A stretch of DNA of 64,000 nucleotides from NCBI RefSeq assembly GCF_032854445.1, contig NC_088295.1:44503385-44567384 (forward strand), in the 5' to 3' direction. This DNA is from Liolophura sinensis. Lineage: Eukaryota > Mollusca > Polyplacophora > Chitonida > Chitonidae. This document shows, one piece after another, positions 4,405-59,200 of the stretch; within the stretch, counting starts at the first letter, position 1; each line of letters opens with the position of its first letter. Both the position numbers and the translations under genes were made by a program. A model generated the notes under the pieces. The model was not told where the DNA came from. It searched no databases and worked only from the letters and a program-made list of their open reading frames with translations.

Positions 4405-4436
<32 letters not shown>

Positions 4437-8305: not shown

Positions 8306-8632
8306 ACAGTCCTTATGGCTCAGGTGGCAGCGCGTCCGCTCCGAGGGCGGTAGATCCTGGGTCGGGTCACACCTAAGACATTGAAAGAGGAAATTAGCGT
8401 GCAGCATTAAGGGGATAGTGCAACGGCTGGTTGACCCGTATCAGTATAATGGCTTGGGTGGGGCGGCTTATTTCCCTTTAGTATGTCGCCTCAGTGAAGC
8501 AGCACTTAGATAAAAGAGCGATGGAAATCCGTCAAGCAGCACGGAGTCACATTACAAGCACTCTACTCCTTCGTCGTCATATGACTAAATAATTCTTAAG
8601 TACGAAGTTAAACCCCAAGCACTCACTCACTA
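8306..8632 (+). mobile_element. tRNA-derived SINE (family B), full length
   Basis: Starts TATGGCTCAGGTGGCAGCGC, with a degenerate B box after GGTAGATCCTGGGTCGG, and ends TTAAACCCCAAGCACTCACT with a short CACT-repeat tail. The same element lies inverted at 58868-59205. Its last 25-34 bases are what is found alone at 25700, 32424 and 38480. Confidence 0.
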
Positions 8633-22700: not shown

Positions 22701-25700
22701 CTGGTCAGGGGGGAGAGAATTTCAAGGTGGTTGGTTCTGCTTTTGTGGGTGATGCTTTTTCTGCAGATGGGGATACAGGTAAAAGAGGGAGATAGTAAAA
22801 AGTGCCGATGACGTCCATGTACCGGTTTCTACATTACATTTTCTGTTATCAATGCCTGCTTACACATGAATAGAATAAAGTTAACAGCTTTTCTGCTCAG
22901 CCAATGGCATAATGACAACTGTAGACATATCAGTGCAATATCCACTACACATATAATTAGTTTCCTCTGGATATCCCTTAACATTCAATCCCTGCATGTT
23001 AACCCACACACTAGTCAGCTAGGGGCCATTCACGTACTATGTTCACAAATAGGCAAACAATACTCTTAATGCCCTTCCCAGACCAGCCCTTCAGTAACCA
23101 GACAAAAAATGAGATTCATTGATAGTATAAAAACAGCAGTATTTCGGCACCTTCAACCCTCCCTGCTCCGTCCCCACCCCTGGAGTAAGTAATACTTGAA
23201 TAGCCCCTGTGAAACTACTGTAAGTGAGAGACAATATGACAACAACAGTTTTGTTCAAATGTACACATGGTAAAAATTAAACAACAAATTATTTTATTTC
23301 GCTTTATAAATAAGTGTGTTTTTTGTTCAATTTTTCTTTTAAAACAAACTAAATTTTCCTATTATATTTGAAAAGTTAGGTGGTGACCTGCCAGTGTGCT
23401 AGTCTTATATTGCAATGACTTGCAGCTGATATGTCTACGGCGATAAACTTAATTTTTGAAACATTTTCAGCAATGTACTTGTACATTAAGCACAGTAAGC
23501 AGTACAGTTAAAACCTATTTAAATTAAGCATAAATGGAACAAAATGAAATGAAAATTTTGTGCCATATTGTTATGCAGAAAGCAAACTTAAGGCACCGAT
23601 AACAGTTACATGTAAGTTGAACTGGCAACAAGAGATTTGGGGGCTTCAGTGAAATATGCACTTTGAAATTTGGATAAGTTTAGGTATAAAAAGATTCGAA
23701 AAAATGTTATAAAGATAAGTTTTGCATTAATAACTTTTTTCTAATAAATTCACACATCTGAAGCACAACAAGTCCAATGTTACACAAGCATCGAGTGTAA
23801 ATTTAGGGAGTAGGTTCACAGCATTATGTGATGATTAATTTCCAAGAAATTTCAAAATATGATTTTTGCTTCACTTAAATTTTCTGACTTCCCGCTCTGA
23901 GTGCTTAGAACCTGATCCCTGTCACTTGACATGGTCTTTGGTGCATAATATACAGGAATGAAGTGACAAACAAAAGTATGTACATTTCAACACAAATCAC
24001 TATGAAATTGGCAAACACCCATCTCATTTTTATGACATTATTTCAAGCACTTTTAATTATTTCCTTAATACACATACTCAATCATTTTTGTAACCTTTTT
24101 CATATGTGATCTTTGAACAAGTCAGATAAGCTAAGAGCTGAACATTCACATTTATGTTAAAATAATATCATGTAATATAACAGTTGATAGATGATACACT
24201 TCGATCAAATAAAATGACACACAGTCTAATTTAGAAAGCTAAATAATACTTAATAATGCATAAAACTGAGAGGGATGTTTACTTGAGTGCATCGTGTTGT
24301 TGATGTAACCACCTATATAAAAAGCAGCAAAAGAAGTTACTGCACTTTAACGATGATTCTGACAAAGCCAAACAGAATGTAGATCAAAAAAAAAACATGA
24401 TTTGAAATTTTGAATAATAGTGTTTGATCAGTATCGTGTTGGAACGATGGGGATGGGAGATTAAAACTGGCAAAAAAAATGAAAAAAAAAAATAAAGAGT
24501 TTCCAGGTCAGAAAAAAAAAATAGTTGTAAAATTATATTATGTTACCTCTTGAACGCTGTTATAGGGCATGGAGGGCTATTTGGGCAAATTTTAGACAGT
24601 ATGCGGTTTCAGAGTGTGAAACGTCGCATCCTCTCCCAAAGGGTAAATAACAGGCATCTCAAAAATTCACGTTATTTAAAAGAAGATGCATTTAATGTTT
24701 AGCTTCGGATCAATGTTTGAAAATGGGTGAACGAACTCAAATTGGAAATCAGTACTGCATATAAAAAATTCCACTGGAATCAGAGTACAATTTTCCAAAC
24801 AAACCATAAGATAAAAGTTGAATTAAACATATGTCAATTCTTTTCCCTGAATGCAGAAGTAGTCAAAATTGACATGCCTCTTGATTTCCAATTAAAGCTA
24901 ATTCACTTCATCTGAACACTTATCACTAGCTTGAATGATATAAACTAATTGTACATTTAACAGTGTTTCATATTAAAATGAAGTTTTCAAGAAGGAGAAA
25001 CTGAATTTGTCATTATTTAATAATTCAAATATAACATAAATATTTGTTGCCTCTAAAATTCAGAAACCCTGATCTTCATTGTTAATATTTATAACACAAC
25101 AATGACATTCCTTTTAATGGCAGTCTCCAATAACTTCCAAATGAGGGCAAAATAATACTCCCATTTATCTTTTAGAAATACAGGTATTAATTTTGGAGAC
25201 AACCTTTAAAATGAATATCATAGAAAACAATTTGATGTTAAAACTGATGATACTAATAATAAACTGTAACCATGCATTCCCCCTAGTTTCACCTTGAAAA
25301 TGAGCAAAAAAGCTTATCATTAGTACTTGATCTGTAGACAGGAACATCAGACATTAAGATCTTTAGGAAATTAAATAAAACAATCAAACAGCCTCACAAG
25401 TGAAGTCATTAACAAAAATGTAGATGTCAATGCCCTCAATCATAACTAAAGCAGTAGTACAACCCAACTCATGTCGGCATGTTGGCTGTAAGCAGATGTA
25501 CATCCTCATAAAAACAAGAAAGCTTAGTGCTTCAAAAACTATTAAAGGCAATTTGTATTTCATAGGACAATAGTATAAGCTCTGAAATATTTGCTTCAGT
25601 TACCAGTTAGGTTTAAGCATAAGATACCGCAAGACAATGCCAGCTTGACACATGGAACATGATATTTTATTATGCACTGCTATTCATTTCACATTTGAGT

Positions 25701-28074
25701 GAGTGAGTGCTTGGGGTTTAACGCCGTACATTTCACATTTGAGCAAGGTCAGTTTAAACTGTTTTACAGTTCACTGCATACGCATATGCAAATGATATCA
25801 TTTCTTTAAAGGTTTCAGCACTGATCTGAAATTAGGTTTTCCTTACACTAGTCAAATGGCACAGTTTCTCATAGGCACAATTTTGCTATTTCTTCTGACA
25901 CTAGATTAAAGGCTGCGGAGGATGGCAGTTGCCAATATTTGCTGGGTTCAGAAAATCATATATCTTGCACTGATGTCAACTGTGGTCTCTTTTTTTCAAT
26001 ATTCCATGCACCAGTACAGTGTTGGTTTACCCGGTATGTTCTTACAGATGAAAGATGAATATAAAATCAAACCAGATTCCATTCACACAAAACATGCATG
26101 TTGCCAGATTTGGTCAAAATGACCCCGGGGGCAAAGCAGTTGTACATCACTCAAAATTTGAGTAAAATAAAGAAATCTATTAAAGAATGTTATAATAAAT
26201 TCAATGGGCTTTTTGGTTGAGACTGAAATTCAAAACATAACGCTTTGTAAAATGTTTGCAATGTTCATGTGCTAAAAATTTAAGAGCCTTCTGCAGTTGA
26301 AAGATTAGTATGCCACTCAAAGTGTACTGTGTTAGTACTTGGTATAAAAGTTAACTTTTTTTTTTAAACTGTAAAACAAAAAAAGACTGGCCCAATTCTG
26401 TGAAACAAGTAAGACATAGGTTGTAATGTTGGAAAAATCCATGTTGTTGGTGACTCAAAAAATGTTGATTAAATAAAAAATCTGCTCTCCTAAAAAAATA
26501 TTTCAAAAGTTGATAAACCTTTTTTACTGGGAAAATCCACAATCCTACTGGTGCAGCAGTCATCAAAAGAGACTCTGGGCACGACTGACCTAAATGAGCA
26601 GAAACCAACAAAAAAATGATGTATTACTGCTGGCAATGAAGAAATCAAAGTTTGAGTGTCGGCTATATTCAGGCATTGATTTCACTTAGAATGCTTATAA
26701 CACCAAGGTTACCATACCACTTCATATCTTTACTGTCGTCATAGCAATGAATGAATGAATGAATGAATGATTCAGGCTTTATGCCATATCAGCAATTTTG
26801 CAGCCATATCACGGCGAGGACAGGTTTAAATCACAGTTAAGGACTTAGCTATCAAAGTGAGTTACCTCTGCTTCAGAATTCATCATGAATCAGTTTACCT
26901 TGGGATACAAGAACCTTGTGAAATCAACCCCTTGGAGATGAGATACATTACCACACCAAAATAAAGGCTCACTTCAAAGTCATGTGAGGCAAGGAAAGAT
27001 TATCCTTAAAAAAAAAACATAAGTTTAAACATCTGGAATGAAACATACTTTTCATGTGAGTTATTAATACCCACAACAAATAAATCTGAATTTTTTTCGA
27101 CAGATCAGTATCTAAATACATGTGTAGCCTTTTGCTTGAATATTTGTATATACTAGAAAACCTAAATTGCTACACACAGAGAGTATGCTTATATCCATCA
27201 CATGAAACTGAAAAAAGCCTTCTAATTTTGCATCAGTTTCATCAAGCAACCCAGTGTGCAGAGTTGCTCTTCTTGGAATTATTTTTCTGAATGACTTAAG
27301 TGAGGTGCAATATAACAGAATTTTCACTCAGTGTGTAGAAATTAGCTTTAATTTTTGTTATTTTCATTGGGATGGTGATGAATTCAACATGTTGTTACTG
27401 TCACCTCTTGATATCCAGGTTATTCAAAGTTTGGCAAAATGTCATGAAAATTCATTGTCATATGTTCCATGATAATTAGCAATGTCAAGCAGCACCTGGG
27501 TTGATAAAGATGAAGCAATTAACAGTTAAGAAAGAAAAAAATTCACTCTCTCTCTGCTCTACAAGTTCAAATTACAGGTCTGGACTGTCAAGGTATACTG
27601 TGAAACTGGTTTGGCGACAATGCATTGTATTAGCCATCATGCATGATTTCATAAGCTTCATATATCCTCTTACTGTCAACAATACCATAACAGCACTGTG
27701 TGTTGATCCAAAAATGTGTATCACAAAACATATGGCAATACAGACCTGTTGAACTGCAAGAGAATGAGCTAAAAAAAATCTATAACTTCATAAATATGAA
27801 TTTTCCCCTGGAAAGTAAGTTACCTGCATCAACAAGGTGTTGTGAGGTTGGGAAGCGTTTCTTCACACAGATGCTGATGGATTGCATGACCAAGATGTGA
27901 GAGAGATTGAGCCAACGCATTAACGTGCGCCGGATAAGGCGCCCTCTCTCATCAGAACCGTGTACTAAAGTGCCTACATAGCCCATTAATCTGCAACACA
28001 CAGGAAAGTACAGGAGTAAATATTAGTGAGCTGAAGGTTTTTATTCATCAATATGAAGGCAAAAACTTCAAATA

Positions 28075-28105
<31 letters not shown>

Positions 28106-29226
28106 TTGGTCTGTTTTTGAAAAATTATTTTGCTGTAAGTTCAGCAATATATTGTGAACCTCATCTTTATGTTCTTCTTGAACTGAACTGCTGGGACTTT
28201 GAGCTTAAAAATTACAGGCTCAAGGGAGATAACTCTGTCTTACCTGTCTGGCCACGGAATAGAGAGGTATTGATTCCACCATCGGCCCACCACAATTGCA
28301 ACATAAAACCCAAGCACAAACGTCAACGGAATCAGGTCAAGGAAGCTCTCAAAATAAACCACAATCTTCTCAAAAATTCTGAAATGTACCAAACAAAATC
28401 ACAAATGACAGAATAATCAGGTACTGTATGTAATCTGATGTGTTAACCTTCTCATGTTTGAACAATCCTTGGTAAGCACAAACAAATAAGGCCTTGCAAG
28501 AAAGAGACTCAATACATATAAATATATAAAAGAATAAAATCCTCAAAAAATTACATAACCTAGGGATGACTGCACTACAAAATAATGCAGTAAATTTTCA
28601 AATGAGCTTTCAGTGGGTTTCCACACATTAGATGATGGATCCTCTTCACTCATTTACATGTTCTCATTGAGTTTCTATACAACATATAGGAATGATAATA
28701 TAAGCTTGAAAATGGCCCAAAAAATTAATTGGTTTCCTTTATGATAAAACCTGCCTTTAATCTTTCAACGTACTATAATTCCTCTAATTTTTGGTACCTT
28801 GTCTGACACCTTTGGTTCTTTTAGCCAATATACATGTAACTGTAACCAGAATACACTGTTTCTTTTTTTCACACCATTAGTGTATGTAATAAACAACATG
28901 TCCATATCTTTACTTTCCAAAAAAATGGGATGGAAATATAACACTTTGCTTTCAGCACTATTTATACCTGTCTCAAAAATGAGAACAATTACAGTTTTTG
29001 AAATGTGAAGATGTTAGCAAGTTTATGATAACAATGCCAGTTCTCACCTTTTCTGGTCTTCTGATAGCGCACACCTGTAGATGATGCTGAGTGTGTAATA
29101 GAGAGACAGGAATATCAGCATCTCCTTGTAGACTAGCTTGTAGACACTGCCCTTCCAGTAGAAGAGGAGTTTGGAGAATCCGCATAAACGGGAGTTTGAC
29201 ACCTTCAGGGTGTAGGTAATCGTCAT
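15423..29226 (-). CDS. BEST: Bestrophin family calcium-activated chloride channel, complete coding region
   Basis: Nine minus-strand coding exons join in phase: 29048-29226, 28244-28378, 27824-27990, 22242-22396, 20826-20903, 19803-19958, 18381-18461, 17526-17677 and 15423-16782, giving 820 residues. The start MTITYT is the invariant bestrophin N terminus. Pore-neck residues I76, F80 and F84 sit in [11 protein letters not shown], and aperture residue I205 in GRIRDEI, at the same numbers as human BEST1. The Ca2+ clasp is [11 protein letters not shown] (297-306), followed by ETNWIIDRN. After residue 368 comes a long Ser/Thr/Pro-rich tail encoded by one exon. Bestrophins are pentameric anion channels opened by Ca2+. 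The metazoan paralogue is not resolved. An acceptor at 29245-29246, 18 nt before the ATG, shows that at least one 5' noncoding exon lies further right. Confidence 0.
16970..17090 (+). repeat. Dispersed repeat D, copy 1
   Basis: Shares TGAGGTC, GTCAGCACCAAAAGT and TTACTTGCCTCTAAAAATG in the same order with copies at 31550, 47457 and 57121. Lies in the last bestrophin intron. Confidence 0.
18724..19546. repeat. 48-bp tandem array, 17 copies, in a bestrophin intron
   Basis: The word GCCAGCTTTG or a one-base variant recurs every 48 bases from 18765 to 19533, 17 times. The unit also holds TAATTAAAGATATTGGACAT and ACTAGCTATCTG. Copies fall into sub-variants (GATATTGGAC, GATACTGGAC, GATATTGAAAA) that recur along the array, suggesting multi-unit duplications. 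It fills most of the intron between the exons at 18381-18461 and 19803-19958. Confidence 0.
19535..19800. repeat. Degenerate ~70-bp tandem repeat next to the 48-bp array
   Basis: Three to four diverged units of about 70 bp, each with TTGTTGAA or similar, a GAACATCCATGTTGACTG-like block, GTAGCAGACCTGA and ATTACTAGGTATCCCCAG. The last block matches ATTACTAGCTATCTGCCAG of the 48-bp unit. Ends right at the exon at 19803. Confidence 0.
21387..21651 (-). mobile_element. SINE family A, full length with intact target-site duplication
   Basis: Best copy in the window, tail to head, ending with the complement of a tRNA-like head (AACCAACTGAGCCACGGAGG). Exact 12-bp duplications AGGTACAAATGA flank it at 375-386 and 652-663 (+21,000). 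The length of about 265 bp and the clean flanks suggest a fairly recent insertion. In a bestrophin intron. Confidence 0.
22450..22477. repeat. Perfect 12-bp stem, 4-nt loop hairpin
   Basis: ACAGGTGAGGTG, ATTA, CACCTCACCTGT. It lies 54 bp upstream (minus strand) of the fourth bestrophin coding exon and holds two CAGGTG E-box words, one on each strand. Function unknown. Confidence 0.
25700..25728 (-). mobile_element. 29-bp SINE-B 3'-end insert with 15-bp target-site duplication
   Basis: The insert matches only the terminal bases of SINE B (GTGCTTGGGGTTTAACGCCG). Exact duplications CATTTCACATTTGAG stand at 25685-25699 and 25729-25743. Bestrophin intron. Confidence 0.
26745..26840. repeat. SINE-like core (family C) with (AATG)n edge
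   Basis: Seven ATGA repeats followed by TTCAGGCTTTATGCC, GCAATTTTGCAGCCATATCA and CGGCGAGGAC. The words parallel the SINE B tail region (CAATTTTTCAGCAATATGAC at 44010). Confidence 0.
28071..28098. repeat. (TA)n followed by poly-T
   Basis: About 14 TA dinucleotides then 11 T, in the bestrophin intron between the exons at 27824-27990 and 28244-28378. Confidence 0.
28244..28378 (-). other. Bestrophin pore-neck exon
   Basis: Encodes residues 60-105 with [20 protein letters not shown] and IPWPD, the most conserved stretch of bestrophins. The hydrophobic neck residues I76, F80 and F84 of the Ca2+-gated channel are intact, so an anion-channel role is well supported. Confidence 0.
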
Positions 29227-29418
29227 CTCGCCTCCTGACACCCACTGGGGAAAAGCACAATATTTAAGGGGACTTCTTTATAAAGAATGGCTGAATCCTT
29301 GGAGAGAATTCAATCTGGAAAAAAAAAGAAAGAGAAAAGTAAATATCAAGGAATCAATAAAATATTTAAATATATAAATACGAATAAAAAAACATATTCT
29401 CTTTTAATTTTCAGCTAC

Positions 29419-29419
29419 A

Positions 29420-29461
<42 letters not shown>
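29419..29461. repeat. (TA)n microsatellite
   Basis: About 20 TA dinucleotides just upstream (minus strand) of the bestrophin start exon. Confidence 0.
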
Positions 29462-29463
<2 letters not shown>

Positions 29464-31549
29464 TTTTCCCTCTTTTAGCACTCAATATCTAAGCTTGGCA
29501 GTTAGTATATAGTAGACTTACACAGACTTTGTTTAATGTGAGCTAAAACAAGGATTTGACTTCAAAGAACACCTGTTTTAATGCACTGTAACAAAGATGC
29601 CACTTAGATATATGAAGGTGCCTTGAATTATAGACAAGGTAATAACAATAGTACTGAAGAAGGGACTGACTATGTTCTCCGTGCTAACATATTTCACTCC
29701 ACCACTAAAAGCTACACTATGTATAATTGTCAAACCTAAGCATACTGAATTCAACAACAAAGAAAAGAAAAAAAAAATGAAACAAAGAAAATAAGCTTTG
29801 CCACTTTGCCATTTGGTAGAGAATATAACGCAAAACACATCACAGCAGTATTCTTGCACTAAATCTTAGTTAAGGTCACAAAAGCTTTTCACACTGTAGG
29901 CCTACATACATGAGATACAAGAGTAACTGTATACATGCATATATATATGTAAATATATGGTACACGTATAGACATCTAATCAGACACATGCGGTTATTCT
30001 CCTCTGCCTTAATTCTATGATACCTACACTGAACTTTCCAGTAACTGCATACTTTGGTTCATACACTTAAGGACTGCCATATCCGCACGATATACCTTGT
30101 GAACCCTAAAGATGCATGAATGAGCATGATCTAGCATCAATCATACTGGTAGACACTGTCTATACAATGAGTCACGCATCAATTACTGCTGCTATAAATG
30201 CACATTAGCATTGTCTGACCACAAAATGACACTTGAAGCTGGTTTCAGAACCGGGGAGGTTTTACACCTGACTTCAGTCCTGGTCAGCAACATACATCTA
30301 TCCTTGCACCACTTAAAACTGCACTTCTGCTTCGCTCTGATAAAAGTCAAGCTATATAATGTGCCGTGTGTACTAACCAGTCTAACACATCATCATCATA
30401 TAACAGAAGCCTTCAAAAGAGGAACCTCATTATGGTTATGTAGTATCTCTGCTGTGGTCCTGGCTGGGTCAGCTGACAAGCAGCTGATATCCTGAGTGTA
30501 ATAGGCACCCAGCACAGACCTGTTAATTGCCCTGTCAATACTAACTGCTGACCAAGGCTATACTGCCCAACCAATATTAACCTCTATTCCATAGAAGGCG
30601 AGTTGTATAGAGACCAGGTGCTTTGGCACTGGCCAGAGCCTTGATCAATAAGGCCAGCCTTGTAAACACAGACTCTCTGACTGCAACCGATATATAACAG
30701 CACCACTGGCCTAGGATCAGAGCCCAGCTGCAAGTCTGCAAGCCCTGACACAAGCATGTTTACCAACGCCTGAATTTGAACACTGCCATAGAGTTCAAAT
30801 ACTGGTATGTGTGCAGAGGATATAGCAGGGATACTTGCCTGGATAAATATTGTTCTAGAAGGAGGTGGAAAGTGATTTTCCCTTCCACAAAAAAAAAACA
30901 AAACAATAAAAAATAATAAAAAAAAAACAAGCAATCCAAGAATTTATATTCAATGCTAAATACATGTATGCAATATGTTGATCAAACAGGTTTGCAACCT
31001 TCACCCAAGGGGTCCCTAAAATGAATTTGCACATAACATTTGATCAAAATTAGACAATAGGCCTATTTGAAGCAGTCATTCTATGAAAACCAACAAAAAT
31101 CAGAATCAAGAAAATCACTGGATATCAGTATGTAACTTGATCAGAAGTTACAAGAGTTAAACTGCACACAAAATTTGATCAAAACTGAACAGAACTTGGA
31201 CAAGTTGACATGAAAACCAAAATGTGACAGATGGATTTTATCAAATTAATACGATAAACCTTGATTTTGTTGTTTTTTTTTTCTTTTCAGGATAAAACAA
31301 GAAATAAGGAATACATGGCTATTAACCATTTTACAAAAGCCACCAGTTAAGACATTTGTTAATTATGACCTGTATATAACAAGCACTGTACATGTAGTTT
31401 AATAATGTTATCCTTGTAACAACTGTTTGGAACACCCTTCTCTTTGAGTTATCTGTGGGGGACAATATGGTAAATGAACCAAAATTTCGAACATGACAAA
31501 AGGTATACAATTTGCCTGAAACTGAATCTTACTGATCTGTGAAAAGTGT

Positions 31550-31700
31550 TTTGAGGTCTGTTTGGAAGGCAGGGTGACATCCTGCTGACAAAATGGTAAG
31601 TTTCAGCACCAAAAGTGCCATTTATGACATTTACTTGCCTCTTAGAATGCACTTTTCTAGGTGAAATTTTAGGCCAATTAGCGTAACATGAAGGAAAAAG
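31550..31700 (+). repeat. Dispersed repeat D, copy 2
   Basis: Contains TTTTGAGGTCTGTTTGGAAG, GCAGGGTGACATCCTGCTGA, GTTTCAGCACCAAAAGTGCC, ACTTGCCTCTTAGAATGCAC and AATTTTAGGCCAATTAGCG. Best-preserved copy; ends not defined. Confidence 0.
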
Positions 31701-32423
31701 AAAAGATCTTTGGTATGGTATACCTATGTAAAATCCTGTTTTGGCACATGTGTTCACATGTGCTGTGAGATCAAAACATAAATGGGTTATACAATTTACA
31801 GCAGTTTGGAGGCACATAAATGTATAGATACATATACATGTAAATGTATACTTACACAAAATTTCACTCTTAAGATGATTTCACCAACCTGACAGCTTTT
31901 AAACCTTACGGCGTGACTTAAGACTCCTGATGTCTAATGCAACTCGCTGAATGAACTAATACAAAAGAAGAGCTCTGTACCTTTTATACAATGCTGATTT
32001 GCCACAGTGTAGCCCCACATGGTCAATGTTCTACAAAAGCACGTGTGCTGACGTCAGAACAGATTTTTAATGTATATCCTTTATTAATCGGGATTTCCCC
32101 ACACTGCTCTACTTCACCTCCTGCCACGGTATAACCAGAATGACTGTAGATTACAAGAACTTACCACTGAGGTGACCCAGGGTCAAACCGAATGCACTGA
32201 CTGACCGTTTCATGCACGCAAGGCTGGCGGAGGAATATAAACCATGCAGGCGCATATCTTACATCCACACCCATGCTTTTCTACCCTCACATTCTGGAAT
32301 GTTCTGGAATTTTCTCTTGCATCATCATAGTGAAACACTTTGTCTGAACCAGTTGTATGTACCTATACTGATCAATATGGAAAAGCCCATTCTCTGTGCC
32401 ACTCCTAGCTCTTCGCAGAAAGA

Positions 32424-32457
32424 GTGAGTGAGCGAGTGCTTGGGGACTAACGTCGTA
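32424..32457 (-). mobile_element. 34-bp SINE-B 3'-end insert with 15-bp target-site duplication
   Basis: The insert consists of the SINE B terminus (GAGTGCTTGGGGACTAACGT). Flanks CTCTTCGCAGAAAGA (32409-32423) and CTCTTTGCAGAAAGA (32458-32472) match 14 of 15. Confidence 0.
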
Positions 32458-34289
32458 CTCTTTGCAGAAAGAATTCTTAGTCATGACAGGAACTAACCAT
32501 TCCCAAAATTGAGGTACTTCCACAATTCCTACATGACTATATGAAGTACACAATGTACGTATTTCACCTTCAAATTAATTTTAGCTGTTTTCAAGTGACA
32601 TTTTGCTTGATTCCGAGTGATATATGCGGTACACAGACCTTTGTTTCAGTGATAGAGAGCTGATATAGATTTTAGTACATATTTCTCCTTTACTGCTCGG
32701 AAATTTAAGCTTATAAAAATGGGCAATCTTCATTGAAGCAGACAAAATCCAATGCAAACTAAATTTGACAACATGACGTACAAAAATAGAGTTTAGATGA
32801 TCAGCATGATGGGATATTCAAGTTTAAATTCCAGCGTATTTAAAAACTGTTTAAGCTTATGAACGTTGTTAAAATGTGTGATGTACACTTGCCTGCATAT
32901 GTAAAACACTGTATACACTGTCCACATCAGTGATTCATTTATTTCACTGGCGATATTCAACACCTACATGTGCAGGGATATGTACAGGTCAGGTTAATGT
33001 ACATTGCAATATCCACAGAGCCATCATATGTGTTGGGCACCCATGCTAATCAAACTGTGTTAAAAGCCAGAAAGTAATTTAAATGAAAACATGGTTTACA
33101 GGCCAATAAAAATTTGGTTATGATACTGAATGTACTTCATCCACAGACATAAAGGCTCTCAGAGGCTATCACAGAGATTTACACTTTATGAAAAATACCA
33201 AAATTTTACGATTGGTTAGAAAGACATTCTTAAAGATTAAGACCAGAACCCTGTATTTTTTTTTGGTGGTTAAGCATACAGCCCAGCCAGCAATGGTTAA
33301 TACGAAGAGTAGACCATTCAGAACCTGGAGAAAAGCACTGTATCTTACTACTTTATTAATGTACCTGACAACAAATCCTCTAACTTCTAGTCTTTGCCAA
33401 TTTTAATAATTTACATTTGTATAGTGCATGCACTTATGGTTGGGTGGAAACATTTATCTTACATGATATTGTGGTAAAAAGTGCATGCGTGGGCAGAACA
33501 CACCTTAATTCCTGCTAATATGGTATTGTAGTAGGTGCATATGGTGTTGCTATACCCAGCTCTGTAAAGCCAAGCATTATTTTGATACAAAACACTCTGA
33601 CCTTTGACCTCCTATCCCAGCTGGTGAAGGGTCACAGAGTTCTACATACTCAGCGTTTGTATATTGTATTATCAAATACAAACACGGATCATTAACCATA
33701 TATTTAGCACATCCTTACTTGAATTAGGTCAATTGTTTCAAAGATGCAAGTTTGTATTAAATGGTCTCTACAGTATCAACAACCATCAGACAAAAAGAAA
33801 AAAGTTCTGAAACAAACGATATATATAGCTTTGCATTAACCATAGCTTATGCACAATTAACATTCACATGGCTGCTGGATGATGCTGCTACATGTGCTTC
33901 AGATCACAGAATGATAAAAAAAATGGCTTATGTAAGAAATGTGTAAACCGCTTGCATGATCATCTAGCACAGCCAATGTAATGCAGTATATATACTCAGT
34001 GCTTCGGCAAATCGAAAAATGAGTCTTTTATTTCAAATGAAGTAGGATATTGCCTGTTAATTAACAAGGCAATTGGATAAAAATCCTGTATCCGTTGAAA
34101 TTTAGCAGACATAAGCTCTACCCATTAAGCTCTATCTCGCCTTCAGCTGTCATAACAAAGGGAATGGCTCTGCTACGATGCAGATCACCGTTGACCCCAT
34201 GTAGCACGCATCACTTCACTGCATAGCGACAACCGACATACACACAAGCGCAAGCTCAGTTAATTGTGGTCCAGAAGGCCAGTACTTAC

Positions 34290-34660
34290 AACTTAAACCA
34301 CACTTGGTATACGCCGTCCAACACCTCGTGCCTCGGTCATTTTTATAAGATCTGTGATAGTACATCGACGACCAGTTTGTTCCGCACAGTTCCTGTTTAG
34401 GAGTTCATATCAGTGGCGCGAGGCTGTGTTGTACTGTTGATGATCGAACCACTGACAACAAAGACTGCGTTCTTGAGGCAACCGCTTTTGGACAGTTCGG
34501 ATCGGTTCTAGCCAGTTCACCGCTGAGAAAATCCAGTTCAATCTGGTTTCTATTCCGTCTCCGTTTATTTGAAACGCCGCCCAACCTTTGATTAAAACTG
34601 CCTCCCATATATTTACTGGCTGCAAGTGCATTGTAGTATATGCTACATGAGTCACGAGCC
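34290..34660 (-). promoter_or_regulatory. Candidate bestrophin first noncoding exon and promoter
   Basis: On the minus strand a strong donor GTAAGTACT begins at 34289, and the sequence before it is less AT-rich and has more CpG than its surroundings. A TAAATATATGGG TATA-like word lies near 34605-34620. This could be the 5' UTR exon that splices to the acceptor at 29245. A rival donor (GTAAGTTC) occurs near 32160. Nothing in the sequence proves either. Confidence 0.
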
Positions 34661-35868
34661 AGCTTTTAGCCGAATTTGATGCAGGTGGAAGAGTAATTAA
34701 TCGGTGGTGGACTTGAATTTAACACCTGAACTCAGTGATAAAACCTCTGCAAGCTCAAAGACTATACAACACCGGTTAACACAGAAAATCTACAATTTGA
34801 TGTTGTGAAAATTTCAAACATCAAGATGACGCATGCGAATCCCAAGCCAAGCTTCATTTTTTCTTATTCGAATATTACGTTATTATTAATCGCGATCGTG
34901 TATTATTTTAAATGAAACTATTTCAACATATCATGTTGAAACTTATATCCCCTCCAAACATAGTCATACAATGAATAACTTCCTGTGTTGTGTGCACGTG
35001 CGTGTAGTCTATAAGCGATGGGAAGTGAACCCACAGGCCTACATGCCTGCGTGTGGAAAGAGAAAAGAAGAGCATTCAAATTAGTGATTAATAAAGACTA
35101 TTATTTTATATGTACCTATCATAGGTTTATTCCTTGCAATTAATTAGAAGTTATATTCGGCTGACATATTCTAAAGACTATCATAATCATGTCGGATATA
35201 GGTCTACGCTCTGTTACATTCAGCGTTTTCTTGCCTAATTTAATACATGTGAACCGTGCAAAAAATGTTTGGCTGTACTCTTGTAAATAAAATTATCAAG
35301 AGTATGTAAAGCTATAACATCATGATATACAAAGATAGCTATGTAAATTCATGTAGGCCCTATAATGATGCGGCATGGAATTCTGAGATACATTGCGATG
35401 CGCATATGGTACGCCTAATCGTAGCATTAAAAATAAATAAATAAATGGGACAATGAATCCGTAATTCTCCCAAATCGTCTACAGTATATAGCCCTAACAA
35501 AACAACCCAGTGTCGCTCCGATCACAAAAAGAAAACTTTCCTAAATATCACGTGTTTCCTCGATCCAATGGTCAACATTAAGTGCATGCTTCGGTATACA
35601 GCGGCAACGAATGATGAGAAGTGATGTAGGATTTATACTTAACACAACAGTTTATAACTATTAACAAACCACATTATCAAATTAACAGTATTTAAAGCAT
35701 TTTGTATAAAATGTGTACCTTCCCAACAAATTCTTTGGAATTTCTTTACGATACAATAATCAGATGAACAAAGTCTATTTTCTTGCATGAACAATGCATG
35801 TAAAATGTAACAGTTTGTCAACATATTCAAAAGTGTACATGTTTTCGTGTGTGAACACCGGATAACTT

Positions 35869-35950
35869 TGAATGAATTAATTAATGATTATGGTTTAACG
35901 CCACGTCGGTAATATGTCAGCCATATCGTGACGAAAACATGTTTATACCA
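35869..35950. repeat. SINE-like core (family C)
   Basis: AATTAATTAATGATTATGG then TTTAACGCCACGTCGGTAAT, GTCAGCCATATCGTGACG. Related to 6303 and 26745. Confidence 0.
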
Positions 35951-38084
35951 GGATACACTGAATGGCTTTCGATATGACGGAAACATTCAAAATAAACAAA
36001 AAGTTCAACATGGTTAAAAGCAATTCAAAGAATCATCGCCAGCTGAAATCGCCAGCAATGCGACAATTCCCGAAACGGTACCTCGTTAAAACCACTTGAT
36101 CCCTGCGAGACATTGCATGCGTATAAGAATTATAGCCAGTGACATGGTGAATAGCGTGCAGCTTATTGTGGGCCTGCAAATCTCATTCATCTTGCCAGAG
36201 GAGGCGAACATGCTTAAGAATATTAAAGCGAAAATCTGTATACGGTATTTTAGTTGCGGATATATTTCTTTTTATTCAGGGCGGGTTTAGCTTCCCTGTC
36301 TACGACTGTGTTTCCATGGATACCAATATGATTCGGTATTCAACATAATATAATGTCTACTTCCTTTAATAAGTTTCCTATGTAAGCTAACATTTCAAGT
36401 ATCAGTAGATTTTTAAATTTATTATCATCTATTGCCAAAAGCCAAGAGAGCGGGTCACTGTATATCATTGCCCTCTAGGAGTTCCGATCCCCAGTGTTGA
36501 CCGCCTGTAGGCTGAAATATATCTGCGCAATAGGCACTCTATCAAGGCCAGATTCCCATGACTGGAGGCGTGAACCACGACAGTTTATATTCCAAATACC
36601 AGCAGAAGAAGCCTATACTTAAACAATGCACAAAACAAATGATAGAAAATAATGATCTACGTATGCAAGTTGATTGATAAAATAGTTCAGGTGAACTCAA
36701 TGTTTTTGGCCGAACATATTCCTATATCAGATATAGTGAAAATGAAAATCTGGTTACTAGGGCAACCACGGAAATGGACAAATGTATAGACCCTATACGT
36801 AACTCACAACAAATCGTCATCCCCTGAATGTATCTAAATGTATCCGGCGGAAATTACAAGTTGCAGCTCAGACATGCACGAAATCATTAATATATTACCT
36901 TTTTTGAATAGGTTTATAGACATCTCGTAACCATGGCAACCGTGAAAATGAACGAGTATGAGTCACAACACATCATCACCCCGTCTATGTTAGTCTAGCA
37001 CAACCTGGCCCGTGTAACTATTAGATAATGTTGGATAACGTTCAGCCAAATTATATATTTATATACGTATGCATCATGAACGATTGGAGCCCGCACACAG
37101 ACGACTCACCTGTAATCGGGCGTATATCGGATTAAATGCCACACATTTATGTGCGGTTGTCGGGCTATATATAGGCCTATGTCGCCATTTTAGCACTGAA
37201 ACAACTGTATCAAAATGTTATAAGGTAAATTATCCCAAGTCAAATTTAGTATTGCTCGGCTTAGTATCGCTTGGATATTCACAACTGTTACAATGTCTAT
37301 AATGAGACTGTATGAGATTTATATGAGTCAAACCGCTATAAAATTTAACAATAACAGGATTTCAAAAATAGCCATATAAATAATATGAGGCCTTTGGAAC
37401 TGAAGCTTTTCAATCTTGTGTACGTTGATTTCTATATAAATGTTCAGTGTATCTTTATCTTCATGGTGGCATTTGTAAATTTCCGTTCGTGGTATTGCCA
37501 CAGAGGGCGTTCGAATACATGGCAAATGGCTACAAAGTTTACGAATGGCTTAATGCTAACTGAGCAGATGGAATGTTGATATACTATACCCACACACTAT
37601 ATCAACCCGTTTAAAACTGTTTCAGCTGGACATATACATGCGATAATTGGCAAAAGACACAAGTGAAAGTAAGACGAATTAACAATGCAATGATTACGTA
37701 TAAATGTCCCCGATGAAAGAAAGCTGGGTTCACTGTACGGTCATTCTGCTCTGTTTACACACACATTATATGCGTTCAATGCGTAGGTGAAGCCAGCCCG
37801 GCTAAACATCGGTCACCGTGCAGCTGCCAACCCTGTCATTTGGCAGGCAATGCATAACCGTCAGAGCATTCAATTCTGAAGGCCACGGGCCTCGATATGA
37901 TGGGAGTAGTTTTGTCCAACCACAGAGAAATGGCAACTTGGATGTTTAAAATGAACACTGAATGGCTGATTAGTAATTTCACGCATATCCTATATGAAAC
38001 GACACAGTTTAGTTTAGTGCAAGTGCATATATATATTTGGTTATTTAAATAAAAAACACATAAATAAAATATTTTTATATAAAT

Positions 38085-39440
38085 TTAATTGTTGCTTAAA
38101 GCCATGCTTAAGAATTTTGCACTTAAGTCATGGCTGTCAGATTCATGGGTGGATAAAATCGAAGTGCCCAGGTAAAACAACTGCCCTTAACCAGGGTAGG
38201 TGACAGCTCATCACAACATCTGACCTCATCGACGAAGACCTGACAGATGCAGTGAGCGTTGCAGTTTAAATGTCACAGCCACCAAGGTCCATTTTCGAGG
38301 AGTTTTCAGAACATCAGAATCAAATTTTATTCCTTCAATAGTTTGAGTAAGACGTTTGGGGAAGAGAATCATCTCCAGCAAAATCAGCTTAAATTTCTCT
38401 TACCATAGCTGACCCCCATTAGCAAAATGATTAGTTTTGTACATTTTGGTCAAAGATTCGATTAGATTAGATCAGTTGAGTGAGCGAGTGCTTGGGGTTT
38501 AACGTTAGATCAGTTGAAAATACTCATCTCTGGATATTAAAGGAAAATTCACACCATGACTATCTGATTGGCGTTAAATGCCAGTTTTTGTTCTTGTATG
38601 GTAGTGGTAAGGTTTTGTACGATGACCTGTACAAATACGCTGTCATGATGATAGTACATAGATTGCAGCCCTAACATGCAAACTCATGGCGTTAATGTTG
38701 AAATTTTAAATTGAACCAAAAATAAATATTATTCATCAATTTAATTGCTGTTTAATGCCATCCTCAAGAATTTTAAACTTAAAACTATAGTATCCACGTC
38801 TATGGGAGGAGGAAGAAATCCTGTGTAAAACAATCACTTTGGAGGAAATAACTTTACCACATTGTAACATTGTGGCAGGCAAGTGGTCTACAGGAACCTT
38901 CATGCAAGACCACATCAAGAGAGCACTATCGATCACTGAATGCCACAAAAGCTTCAGAATAAAGAAAGCAAGGGAATCCAGAAAACCCCTTGTCCGACAA
39001 TTGGACTGAACTCACATCTTGTTCTGCTCCCAAACTATGTATGAAAATGAACTGAGAGATTGCTGCTACATCCAAGCAAATTATAGAGAATTTAGTTTCT
39101 TCGTGACAAAGCTAATGCATTAGGTCCCAGTTGGAGTTACACATTATAATCGGTCACTCAAGCATGAGGTCCTATAGTGGATGAAACCAGATTCAAGAAA
39201 CCAGCATTAGGACACCAATGTACTTTTCCAAGTAGGTAACAATCAACTTTTCCAGGAGAAACGTACTAATTTGACTTGATTGTCGTTTAATACTGAACCC
39301 AAAAATTTTTTACTGACGGCTGTCAGTTTTAAGCGTGGAGGAAACCTGAATGACCAAGGAAAACTACTGACATCAACTTTGGCAGATAGCCTACTGACAA
39401 GCTTTCCCACGTGACATACACATTTGCAAACCATATTGGC
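38085..39440. repeat. Cluster of three diverged SINE-like copies
   Basis: Copies start near 38085, 38745 and 39265, each with a TTAATTGCTGTTTAATGCC-like block, then TCAAGAATTTT or CCAAAAATTTT and an ACTTAA or TTTTAAG block. They resemble the SINE A tail (GTTTTACGCCGTACTCAAGA) but the bodies differ, so they may be a separate or very old family. Confidence 0.
38480..38504 (-). mobile_element. 25-bp SINE-B 3'-end insert with 13-bp target-site duplication
   Basis: The insert is GAGTGCTTGGGGTTTAACG preceded by GTGAGC. Exact duplications TTAGATCAGTTGA lie at 38467-38479 and 38505-38517. Confidence 0.
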
Positions 39441-43069: not shown

Positions 43070-46000
43070 CTAGTGAGCGATGACAGGCTGATTGGGGTTG
43101 TGATGAAGACTCGGCGGAAGGTGAGGCCGATCTTCTAGCTTGTCATACTCCAAGTAAAAATCTTTTGCCACTTTCTTCCAGGTGTGTGCATCGAAAAAGT
43201 AGTATGTTCCTCGCTCGTAGGAATTTGTTTTCATGATTGGTTCGACCCCTTGTGCTCGCGTTATCCATATCCTTTCCTCTTTGTGGTACCTCCAGTCCCT
43301 GTTATACCTGCACAACAAAAGTTAATTTTCAGGAAATGTGATTTTTTTTTTTCTTTCAAACTTTTAATATACACATGAGACATCTCATGAGACATATAAC
43401 TCTGGTTTATACTAGCATATATCATGGCATGAGTTTGTAGTGTAACATGCCACAGATTCTCCACACTGTAAGGCTGTCAAAAATGAGTTTGAAAACACCT
43501 CCTTAACCTGCATTAAATGCGGGTCACTCCTTCGCCATAGGACAAAATCACTTGTCCTGAGCAGAAAAAAAGAAAACATGGTAGGCTTTTCTTTGCTGTC
43601 CATCTCTCTCCACCTCGTAAACACCAAAGGTGCCATGTGGCTTTGTGTTCTTCACTAAGCAGTATATTTTGCCCACAAAATTTTAAAATCCTTGTTAAAT
43701 TGGTGAATGGTTTATTTACAGTCTGTACATGTGTAATTGTCAAGAGCAGAGTATCACCTATTTTTCCCCATTCAGTGGAATATCACAGACATGACTGCTG
43801 AGGAGTACTGTAGTGGTTTCACGTAATACATCAGGCGTCTCAGCTTTTATTCCCTTATCTGGTTGAGCTGTGAAACACTTTGTACCTGGCAGATTTGCTA
43901 AAATATATACACATTGTGCCTAATGTTTTACATCATTGATCTTCTACTGCAGTATTTGAGATTTTAGGTTTCTATGTGTGTACGCTTGGGGTTTAACGTC
44001 GTACTTGACAATTTTTCAGCAATATGACGAGGAGGAAACATTAGGTGTGTGTACATAGATTGTGACTTTTTGTGACAGGGTACCGAAGTGCTGCGGCCAC
44101 TGAAGTATCATACCGAAGACACCAGATACGACACCCTCGCCCAGTCACATTATACTGACACTTGGCCAACCAGTCATGTTTCCTTACTATAACCTGCCAC
44201 TGCTGAGCGCCAAGTGAAGCAGCAGCAAGTACCATTTTTAAAGTTTTTGGAATGTCCCAACCCGGGTTTGAACTTGAGATCCCCCGACTTTAAGGCGCAC
44301 TTTTAGGTTTCTAGGTGGAGAAATTCAAGAGTATCTGTATAAACCACTACTCTTCACCTATAAATCTTGTATTTATTCTCAGTGGTAAGCTATAGATGAT
44401 GACTTACAACTCAGCAGCTACAGCCAGCTGTAACACATCTCCTCCATACATATAAAACAGGAAGAACAGCAAGTCTTCCCCATATCGGTTCAGCTTAATT
44501 GGCGCAAGCTGTGAACATAAAAAATATCATGTAAACTGACCAGCACATCTAACTCAAACTAACTCAACAGCTTAAGCACGATTTCACTTGCATCATTCAT
44601 ACACTGGACATTCATGTGGATTTGTAAATATTTATGTATTTGAAGTTTCCTCATACTACTGATATCCTGCAATACTTAAAATTACCATTTTAAAAACTAT
44701 CTTAAAAAATGCATGGCCAAAAGAATAAACATAAACATGTATAAAAACACACTTGTTTTGTTTGAGTGTAATCAAAATGATGATTTATTGTTTATATTTT
44801 AAATCTACACACCACAATAATACAAGCACAGATAAATCTAAAATAAGCAGATATAAACACACATACAAAAATAAAACATTTTGACAACATCCAGTATACA
44901 TTTATACATCTCATTCTTAATATATTAACAATAACAATACATGTGATATTAAATAACTGCTGCCTTCAGACACTTCAGAACTTTATAAAGTAACCAGAAT
45001 AATACCAATATTGCACTGAAACTTGTTAACTACCTGCTATTATGAGGCAGTTACTAATGACAAACCATTCCTTACTGCATATATCCTGATGTCATGTGCC
45101 ACATTAAAATTTCTACACATGCTAATAATGGAATGCGAGGCAAGAACAATAAGTATTGTGGTAATTTTCTTTTTATCTATCTGGCTTTAAAATGTAAATG
45201 AATATCTGTTATTTTTTTATTTTGATTCAAGTATTAATCGGCAAGGTAATTAATGGGCTGGACATTTTCACACATCAACCATATTAAATATACATGAATG
45301 GCAACAGTAAATCAGCGCACACAGCACTTATTTACTACTGTTCTAACGACACAACTACAGAAGATGATACACACATTATACAGTTTACTAGCATGCATTA
45401 AGAGTTTAACATGTGCTGTCCTAGCCTCCAGCACTGGATAGCAGGCATTGACTATACAAACAATTACAAATAAACAACGGCTTATTGATACGTAGTTTAA
45501 TAAAAACAACAATGTAAACATAATTTGGCTATCACATGTACATGTAGATTAATATGCACAATTACAATCCTCGCATGAACAGCTGCCCCATTCAATCAAT
45601 ACATCCAGCATGGGCATACACATGTACTAACACAACAATATATAAATACACCATTATCACTCCATCTAACTAATCTATCTAAGAACATAGCAGGGCTGGG
45701 GGATCATCAACAGTGAACTGTCTATTTTGTAAACCAATCTTTTTTTTTGATCTGACACTTTGGAATAGTACACCATGATATAACAAACAAACTGTCATTT
45801 ATAATATTGGTGAAAAACTGGGCCACTTTCATTGCAAGAAATTTCACATCTGAAAAAATAGGTCAACCTAGGCCATCTTCAACAAATTTGACAATGGTGG
45901 CTAGCTATCTGAGGGCGAGCTTATCAGAAGGTCCAAATAACAAAAGAATGCATCTTTTCTTCTGTGGTGCTGTTGTGCACGTGTAAGCCATATATGTTTT

Positions 46001-56200: not shown

Positions 56201-59200
56201 AAGAGGTTACAAGCTAAAATTAAAATCCACAAATGTATCAGGTTTAATCAAATACATATAAAAACATGCAAAAGTATGCAAAGCACAAGTCTGGTGCACT
56301 GAAAAAAGCTGGCCAGACATGACTGGAACTGCCTACAATAAGGGCATATGTGTGCACTATGGATGTATGCAGGTACATGTAGCATGACTAATGCCTTTGT
56401 GAACTTTGTGAAAAGCATTCAGCCTTAACAGAACTACGCAATCGTACTTATATATACTAGTATATACGTCACATGAACTCTGATATACTACTAAAATACA
56501 ACCTAAAAAAAGGACAGGAGAATATGACCATACCACGTTCCATGGTGTCCCCGATCTCAACATTACCTGTCTTAGTCCATGTTATGTCGAAACATTTATG
56601 TTTTTATTTAGAGGACAGCATGTCAAGGTATCATAAATTAATCAATGTTAACTAAATATCCAACACCTTAAACTATTCAAGTCAATTTTCCCAACCTCTT
56701 AAGTGGACATATTGTCTGGAAAATAAATCACTTGTGCCTACTTCCAGTGACAACTATTTGCTGTATAAAAACTTTTCTGTAGTAAATTAACAATACACAC
56801 ACATATATACACATATATATACACATATATATACACACATACATACACACATACAGTAAATGCATACCCTAAATCCTCCACAAATTCCACATCAGACACA
56901 GTGCATGTTTTGGCATATTAGAGAAATGTCATCTGATTTGAACAGATTATTTTATAATATCAGTGAAGATCATATGTGCCCTTACCATATTATATATTTT
57001 AGTCATCAAAACCATAGGAATTAAATTTGAATCACTCATCTTAAGTTATACTTTACAAGTAGAATTTGTTGAGTATTTAGAGCATGGTAAATATCCTCAA
57101 ATTTCACTCATGATCAAATACTGGAAGGTAGTACATGGTACCCTTATATAACATGGTACGTTTCAGCCCCAGAAGTAATATTTTGCAACACTTATTTACT
57201 TTTCAAAATGCTTTTTTTCTGGGAAAAATTTAGGTCATTTACCATGTATGTCCTAGCAGAACTGAGACAGAACTTTTACTTTTATAAAAGTTCACCTAAT
57301 CTACAGAGTAACTGGAATTAAATGTCTCCATGTCAATGGCATATCAACTACACGTTAACACGGAACTTAAATACTACTTCCCAACCCACTTACACAAAGC
57401 TTTGTAAATCATTTGTCATGTAACTGTCCTCATAAATCATGTTACCCTATGCCATGATAACCAACACATAAACAGAGCTGATGTCATTTACGAAAAAAGC
57501 ACCTACATTGTAGATTAGGGATCAGACTTAACAAGTTTTGTTAAACTGACCACAGGTAATATATTGATGCAATGACCCAATAAATACATATACCATATCA
57601 AGTTTACAGCTGGGTTTTTCAGGGTTAATTGAACTTTACTGGTTACTTCGAAGTTTCGTTTAAAAGTTACAAAACATTCTCATTCTGTTGCTTGAGTAAT
57701 TTGGGCTGATCTAATTTTAAGCACACCATTCAATGCCATAACTAAGATGTCATCTATTCTAAAGCCTTCATCTGAAAAAGATCTGATGTTCACAATGTCC
57801 ATCAACTATTTTAAATAGGTCCATACATAAAATCAATCAAAAATTTCAAAACAAATTTAATTACGCTGAATTTTGGGCCAGAATTTGCAAGAACAATAAA
57901 CATGAAACTCTGGGATGTCTAGTTATTTTTTACTGTACAAACACAATTTTATTACATTTTGTCCATCACTCATCCATCTCTACTATTCATTTCTTATCAG
58001 ACAGAGACTACACCAACTGCAAATATTTATCTGAATACTACAAACAGTAACAAACACAGAACTTTGGGGGAAGAGGTCTAAGTGTTTTTTGAAAGCTTTT
58101 AAAATGATGAACATAAAGGCATAAGATCCTCAGGAACACTGTAACCTGCCATCGTCTCTACTTTGTACTTAAATGAGTAAAAGGTCTAAATACACATTTA
58201 AATTTATACACATACAGTATCAAAACAGCGGCCAACCTCTCCCACCCCACCCCCCTCTAGAAATATGAAAATAAGTAAGTTTTGGTATCTTTTGGCTTAA
58301 TACAATAATAAAAATTTGACGCACATTCATGTACAATATAGTGTTTGAAATTCCAACAACGACAAAACTTGTGTGGGTATACAACATAACAACCAAGTCC
58401 ATCAGCCAAAATGGACTATGGAGGAAAAACCACAAGAAAAGCTGATGAATACAACTGAACAAAAACATCACATTAATAACTCAACATGAAAACAACAGTG
58501 CTTTTTTCAGTTTAGAGTACATAGCCTACATAGAGATAATGTATAATACAATACAGCAAGTTCAGATGTTTGCTTGGTCATGTATTTCCATTGTAGTCTC
58601 TGTAAATTACATCAACATCTGACAGGGTTGCATTCACATGCTGTTATAATGAAGCTTTGTCATCAGCAGGCTGATAAATGTGTCTGACTCAGGGTGACAT
58701 GCTATTACATGTGAAAGGCTAAAACACCACCTCATTCAGTAGATATACAGTACATGTATCAATATAGGAAAAGTAGTTCAAAATGAGCAACAGGAGGAAT
58801 TTGGGGAGAAGCAAGTGAATGGGTTTGATACTGATAGGTTTCGTCAGAAGTGAGGCTCGAATTCACTCTGCTTGGGGTTTAATGTCGTACTTAACAATTT
58901 TTCAGTCATATGATGACGAAGGAGTCCTTGGAGTGCATATAATGTGCCCCCTTGTTGCGGGACGGATTTCCATCGCTCTTTCACCTAGCGCTGCTTCACT
59001 GAGATGACTTACGGAAGGCAAGTAAGCCACCCCACCATTATACTGATATGGGTCAAACAGTCGTTGCACTATCCCTTTTGTACTGACCGCCAAGCGAGGA
59101 AGTTACAACTTCCTCTTTTAAAGCTTTTAAGTGTAACCGGCCCAGGACTGACCCAGGATCTACCGCCGCTGAAGAGCTCTACCAACTGTGCTATCGGCCC

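Follow-up and report, generated by a model that had tools for sequence, protein, structure and literature searches.

The 64,000-nucleotide stretch of the Liolophura sinensis genome analysed here (contig NC_088295.1, positions 44,503,385 to 44,567,384; hereafter the window) contains three very short insertions, or stubs, made of the 3' end of a short interspersed element (SINE) that we call SINE B. Each stands between its own target-site duplications (TSDs), and all three belong to class I, the shorter of two size classes described below. Positions within SINE B are counted in nucleotides from the CGTT motif near its 3' end, negative numbers lying upstream.

25700..25728, minus strand: stub 1, class I, 29 bp from the 3' end of SINE B; its 5' end lies 5 nt upstream of CGTT
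25685..25699 and 25729..25743: TSD copies of stub 1, 15 bp, identical
32424..32457, minus strand: stub 2, class I, 34 bp from the 3' end of SINE B; its 5' end lies 5 nt upstream of CGTT
32409..32423 and 32458..32472: TSD copies of stub 2, 15 bp, one mismatch
38480..38504, minus strand: stub 3, 25 bp, SINE B 3' end from CGTT on, shortest of class I
38467..38479 and 38505..38517: TSD copies of stub 3, 13 bp, identical

A preliminary description of the window had proposed these inserts with these positions, lengths and duplications, and all of them held both in a direct check of the window and in a blind scan for direct repeats. The scan accepted exact repeats of at least 12 bp, or of at least 15 bp with one mismatch, six repeat-rich stretches being excluded by hand; all three stubs were among the nine pairs with a spacer of up to 120 bp, and five first-order Markov sequences used as controls gave 0, 1, 2, 0 and 0 pairs. 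Two base differences in its core, and an extension that ran too far, caused the automatic TSD step to miss stub 2. On the minus strand the stubs start TACGGCG, TACGACG and CGTTAAA. The earlier claim that two of them share a start stands, and the third, said to begin four bases further in, begins four or five bases in, one A being ambiguous. Elsewhere in the window (42029-42106), a 48-bp segment that looks unlike SINE A (introduced below) or SINE B is flanked by 15-bp direct repeats with one mismatch and is possibly another short insertion.

SINE B itself is about 340 nt long plus its tail. The consensus, built from 79 copies, begins GACCGGCCCGGATAGCACAGTTGGTAGAGCG and finishes TTCGTCGTCATATGACTGAAAAATTGTTGAGTACGACGTTAAACCCCAAGC(ACTC)n, and its head (GGATAGCACAGTTGGTAGAGCG) resembles an A box by eye; ARAGORN found no tRNA genes in the window. 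Together with this consensus, thousands of exact tail matches mark SINE B as a dispersed family. The tail 17-mer GTGCTTGGGGTTTAACG has at least 6333 exact matches in the 609 Mb of the one genome searched, and the reversed-pattern control has none. From the first 9 Mb of contig C1 we took 100 listed places and removed seven in one satellite array and one duplicate, which left 92 loci; exact matching to a 17-mer favours young copies, and the repeat counts are lower bounds.

A TSD (score of at least 8) was present at 65 of the 92 loci, and swapped flanks, tried on an earlier part of the sample, gave 3/300 at a score of at least 9. The 5' ends of these 65 copies fall into a few narrow groups. Seven copies end 6, 7, 7, 8, 9, 11 and 13 nt upstream of CGTT (class I) and seven others at 33, 34, 34, 35, 35, 35 and 35 nt (class II). 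A further eight end at 184-265 nt and 42 at 295-342 nt, and no TSD-bearing copy ends at 14-32 or 37-183 nt. The copy at 36 nt (locus L038) has the SINE head fused to CGTT within a TSD and is an internally deleted copy, not a truncation. Among the members of class I, one (L194) has a weak TSD with two mismatches and another (L070) has extra bases at the junction. The resulting inserts form two narrow short classes, of 25-41 bp (class I) and 52-68 bp (class II). The ends of the long copies also cluster: 22 lie close to the start of the consensus, and those of another 14 distinct copies lie at consensus positions 38-56 in the putative tRNA-like head, where ACCGGCCCGG is predicted to pair with the stretch CGGGACCGGU.

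Could such a pattern be chance, or a smooth truncation curve viewed in a small window? Only three stubs lie in the 64 kb, and copies below about 25 bp are hard to detect, both of which would speak for this view, but we give it almost no chance of being right. In the first part of the sample (20 truncated copies), seven ends within 3 nt appeared in 0 of 20,000 uniform or exponential simulations, and models fitted to the 12 shortest copies gave 0.0004 (exponential) and 0.0002 (uniform) for the same event. Single positions were also contrasted. Patterns that required the consensus downstream of a chosen end position and non-consensus bases upstream of it had 67 matches genome-wide for an end at -35 and a single match for an end at -43. 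The simulations, the distribution of TSD-bearing ends and this contrast led us to reject a smooth truncation curve for SINE B, in agreement with the preliminary description, which had doubted one.

The same approach was used at other positions. An end at -18, in the loop of the tail hairpin described below, gave 64 matches, nearly all of which are by eye one-base indels of an A run in untruncated copies (about five are unclear). An end at +4 gave one match, an untruncated copy carrying mutations, and therefore no true end; this result also speaks against a pure detection floor at 25 bp. When the pattern was widened to ends from 0 to +8, there were 179 matches, and among the 100 listed about ten are possible shorter stubs by eye, the others being mostly run-length indels, internal deletions and array units. 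A few inserts shorter than the known stubs probably exist.

We fetched 50 of the 67 loci with the class II pattern, two of the 67 having already been sampled. This pattern requires the whole stem of the hairpin and is blind to ends inside it. TSDs were found at 34 of the 50 (28/40 in the first 40, against 5/652 with swapped flanks). By eye, nine of the 16 loci without a TSD belong to a related subfamily that is not truncated at this point, one (L124) is a SINE B copy with a small deletion, four (L089, L106, L128 and L200) have weak or diverged TSDs and two (L110 and L203) are unclear. Class II contains both GTTGAG and GTTAAG variants, so it has no single master source. These variants also bear on the idea that the short inserts are not products of SINE B RNA at all, being instead a very small mobile unit in its own right, or copies, truncated at the 5' end, of a partner long interspersed element (LINE) with the same tail. 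The tail is indeed common to two SINE families, and LINEs are the usual source of SINE tails (PMC3747384). We nevertheless consider this origin improbable, as at least two SINE sequence variants occur in class II, no copy among the 92 loci passes -35 into a body other than that of SINE B, and a unit of 60 nt without the SINE head would presumably be without an internal promoter.

The class I pattern had 160 matches, from which 40 loci were fetched in list order, with units of arrays, a single duplicate and two previously sampled loci left out. TSDs were present at 17 of the 40, compared with 23/778 for swapped flanks. Sixteen of these 17 begin at 0-11 nt; the remaining one, L146, has lost its loop and begins where class II does. 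Two, L142 and L165, are tandem repeats whose unit is the TSD plus a class I stub, as if begun by unequal exchange between both TSD copies, which leaves 15 unambiguous. The 23 loci without a TSD comprise 18 SINE copies that carry an indel at the hairpin or close to it, and five loci that have no upstream SINE B match. The class I pattern selects for losses of the hairpin loop, and SINE B copies without about 17-23 nt of it were noted at L134, L138, L141, L152, L153, L155, L162 and L167, with several more by eye among the matches. The SINE tail also occurs within tandem arrays at C1:7896476-7897412 (L088), C4:9340128-9340465 and C6:311990-312752, whose periods are roughly 102, 43 and 66 bp, or multiples of these lengths.

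Such arrays, the two tandem loci and the frequency of hairpin indels in the class I-pattern set would be in keeping with an origin of the inserts at the DNA level, either by later loss of the body from longer SINE copies or by the spread of tail pieces as satellite units or by repair. However, every later deletion would have needed to stop precisely where the 5' TSD ends on its inner side, and the flanks vary between loci; we regard an origin of this kind as very improbable.

Taken genome-wide, class II has about 370 members by pattern, or 528 (216-1040) from 7/84 sampled loci. For class I the corresponding figures are about 464-580 and 377 (124-845), the latter from 5/84. Both classes together come to 905 (482-1496) from 12/84 loci, the final sample being 14/92, and we put the number of short inserts at roughly 500-1500. 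The supposition in the preliminary description that short copies recur across the genome, again between duplications, is borne out in the sample and in both pattern sets.

Stubs and long copies appear to have been inserted in the same way. The TSDs of SINE B vary in length, mostly 11-16 bp, in stubs and long copies alike, and both were inserted at T|TC or T|CTC sites (61 copies). As this site continues the ACTC tail, the target end can pair with the tail. Microhomology at the 5' junction was 2, 0, 0, 3, 0, 1 and 1 nt in class I and 1, 1, 0, 2, 0, 0 and 0 nt in class II. With TSDs and a target signature as in long copies, the stubs are retropositions, as first proposed, and have the features of target-primed reverse transcription (TPRT).

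The discrete 5' ends match a hairpin predicted in the SINE B tail. In this fold, which spans -34 to +1, CGUCGU (-34 to -29) pairs with ACGACG (-4 to +1) around a weak inner helix; a smaller tail hairpin, our first guess, was dropped. Class I ends lie in the 3' half of the predicted hairpin, and those of class II are at most one or two nucleotides away from its 5' base. SINE A, a second family in this genome, has a related tail (CGCCGTCGTATAAGTGAAATATTCTTGAGTACGGCGTAAAACACCAATC plus an A/T-rich repeat), and its predicted hairpin, in the corresponding position of the alignment, differs by one base pair in which both partners are changed (CGCCGU/ACGGCG). As the folding z-scores given below are weak, we consider the tail hairpin plausible as a real structure but not proven. 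Similar tails probably occur in molluscan SINEs. Insertions of the GGCCT type between the tail GTA and TAC were seen in both families (L143, L163 and, for SINE A, L016:8283).

The window holds three long copies, as follows.

~8310..8632, plus strand: long SINE B copy, ends approximate; tail hairpin at ~8572-8607
43975..44300, minus strand: long diverged SINE B-type copy with GTACACACA tail; 13-bp direct repeats at 43962-43974 and 44301-44313
~58866..59204, minus strand: long SINE B copy, ends approximate

The second of these belongs to a related SINE subfamily with the same tail hairpin, found also at L102, L105, L111, L113, L114, L115, L127, L201 and L202; several of its copies have CATA, CATT or ACACA repeats in place of ACTC. 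Searches of two viral collections and one bacterial collection with the tails gave no matches. The window also contains, at 4435-4516, a perfect self-complementary stretch of 82 bp adjoining an AT repeat.

We propose that the stubs are products of abortive TPRT of SINE B RNA in which the first strand ended on the tail hairpin, an explanation to which we give about even credence. The enzyme of a partner LINE would dock on the hairpin, prime on the ACTC repeats and then have to leave the hairpin in order to continue. Where the hairpin was not unwound or released, the later steps would proceed as normal and join a short cDNA to the target; an enzyme that had cleared the hairpin would usually run at least 180 nt more, mostly into the putative tRNA-like head. 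The proposed stop at the hairpin stage resembles abortive initiation by RNA polymerases. A preferred reverse-transcription stop had been suggested for the window stubs from the outset, and as a best reading it survives in altered form: a single stop does not account for these stubs, since class I is spread over a zone of about 0-13 nt, and a second, sharper class exists.

The breakpoints of the stubs are reused in longer copies, both in L038, where the head is fused to CGTT within a TSD, and in L139, L133 and L060. These fused copies suggest events that took place while a longer RNA was being copied. The main competitor to a stop on the hairpin, akin to the very short templates or processed RNA also raised in the preliminary description, is a template that was already short: the RNA may have been cut at the hairpin base, or sometimes within the hairpin, or degraded except for a protein-bound hairpin and tail, so that a fragment of about 60 nt was copied to its end. 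A template cut at the hairpin base would fit class II in particular. The ends of class II are sharply placed, at 33-35 nt in the unselected sample, and fall directly beyond the stem; 6/28 of its TSD-bearing loci have 1-4 extra nucleotides at the 5' junction, as with run-off at an RNA end. Furthermore, a 43-nt core RNA of R2 is sufficient for TPRT (PMC10499050). On the other hand, the ends of class I are scattered, and the fused copies would require a longer RNA or a template switch. On balance we think a pre-cut or protected template somewhat unlikely, and both processes may be at work.

Several observations weigh against abortive TPRT on the hairpin. Class II ends lie beyond the predicted hairpin, where unwinding would already be over, and the z-scores of the fold are weak, at -0.80 and -0.25 in SINE B and -1.68 and -2.00 in SINE A. 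Every tail motif noted in 264 kb belonged to a SINE-type copy, and no partner LINE was identified, no LINE search having been made. The 27 of 92 sampled loci without a TSD also count here. A wider search at all of their 5' boundaries yielded 12 with a score of at least 9 (swapped controls 13/273); L062 lies at 174 nt, and the other 11, several of which have internal deletions, lie at 251 nt or beyond. Of the 15 still without a usable TSD, six (L040, L196, L189, L009, L078 and L087) show SINE extents of 17-149 nt, which are lower bounds because extension stops at indels; the emptiness of the range 37-183 nt thus holds only for TSD-bearing copies. Finally, SINE A did not show the corresponding class: none of 20 fetched loci (the first part of a list of 207 matches to the class I pattern, two near-duplicates skipped) had a TSD, with a swapped control of 6/375, and this differs from the 17/40 of SINE B (Fisher p = 0.0005). 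Class I stubs as a general property that extends to SINE A are therefore unsupported; a difference in partner, age or hairpin could explain the contrast.

The abortive products proposed here can be set beside several known systems. Stem-loop recognition has been described for stringent-type LINEs, including UnaL2/UnaSINE1, ZfL2, SART1 and others (PMC3747384, PMC5135761). These LINE/SINE pairs have a stem-loop at the 3' end, to which the predicted hairpin of SINE B would correspond, and resemble SINE B in the short simple repeat that comes next, a tail common to element families, target-primed insertion and TSDs. In SINE B the repeat tail and its sharing by two families are present, and the stem-loop is a prediction with one two-sided pair change. 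The stringent-type pairs are described for recognition of the stem-loop, whereas inserts that end on a predicted one are the feature here. Ordinary truncated SINE and LINE copies likewise combine 5' truncation with TSDs. However, truncations of HaSE1 cover 75-356 bp (PMC3272025) and LINE copies 100-1000 bp (PMC3747384), in contrast to the two narrow classes of 25-68 bp in L. sinensis. The R2 3'UTR core or 'R2 tag' (43 nt; PMC10499050) is also a short structured 3' RNA that is reverse transcribed at its target, but it is an engineered in vitro template, and the stubs come from a SINE tail inserted in nature. Tailless retropseudogenes similarly represent short stretches of small RNAs, or of tRNA-related SINE RNAs, that were retroposed, but are without a 3' tail (PMC3747384); the stubs end in ACTC repeats and thus retain theirs. 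Further SINE literature concerns bivalve SINEs (PMC10294476), the TSDs of Bov-B and Sauria elements (PMC13295347) and a limpet Nin-SINE satellite (PMC11121367). We found no published description of inserts ending at a tail hairpin in a literature search that was without many journals and covered parts of the sources.

If these inserts are what they appear to be, counts of SINEs omit a class of insertion that duplicates target DNA and could serve as markers. A choice between a reverse-transcription stop and a pre-cut template becomes directly testable. Should the template prove to have been cut or protected, each insert would record the footprint of a reverse-transcription particle or a processed small RNA. 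Should abortive TPRT be correct, the ends of inserts too short for ordinary repeat masking would map the docking site of the enzyme at near-nucleotide resolution. And if the ends mark release of the enzyme, natural insertions would show across the whole genome how a template is recognised and then left during TPRT, a step otherwise studied mainly in vitro. We tentatively suggest, with more doubt than conviction, that abortive retrotransposition is a regular outcome with a fossil record, in which failed escape from the recognition hairpin integrates 25-68 bp of hairpin and tail with normal TSDs and has left many hundreds of inserts in this genome.

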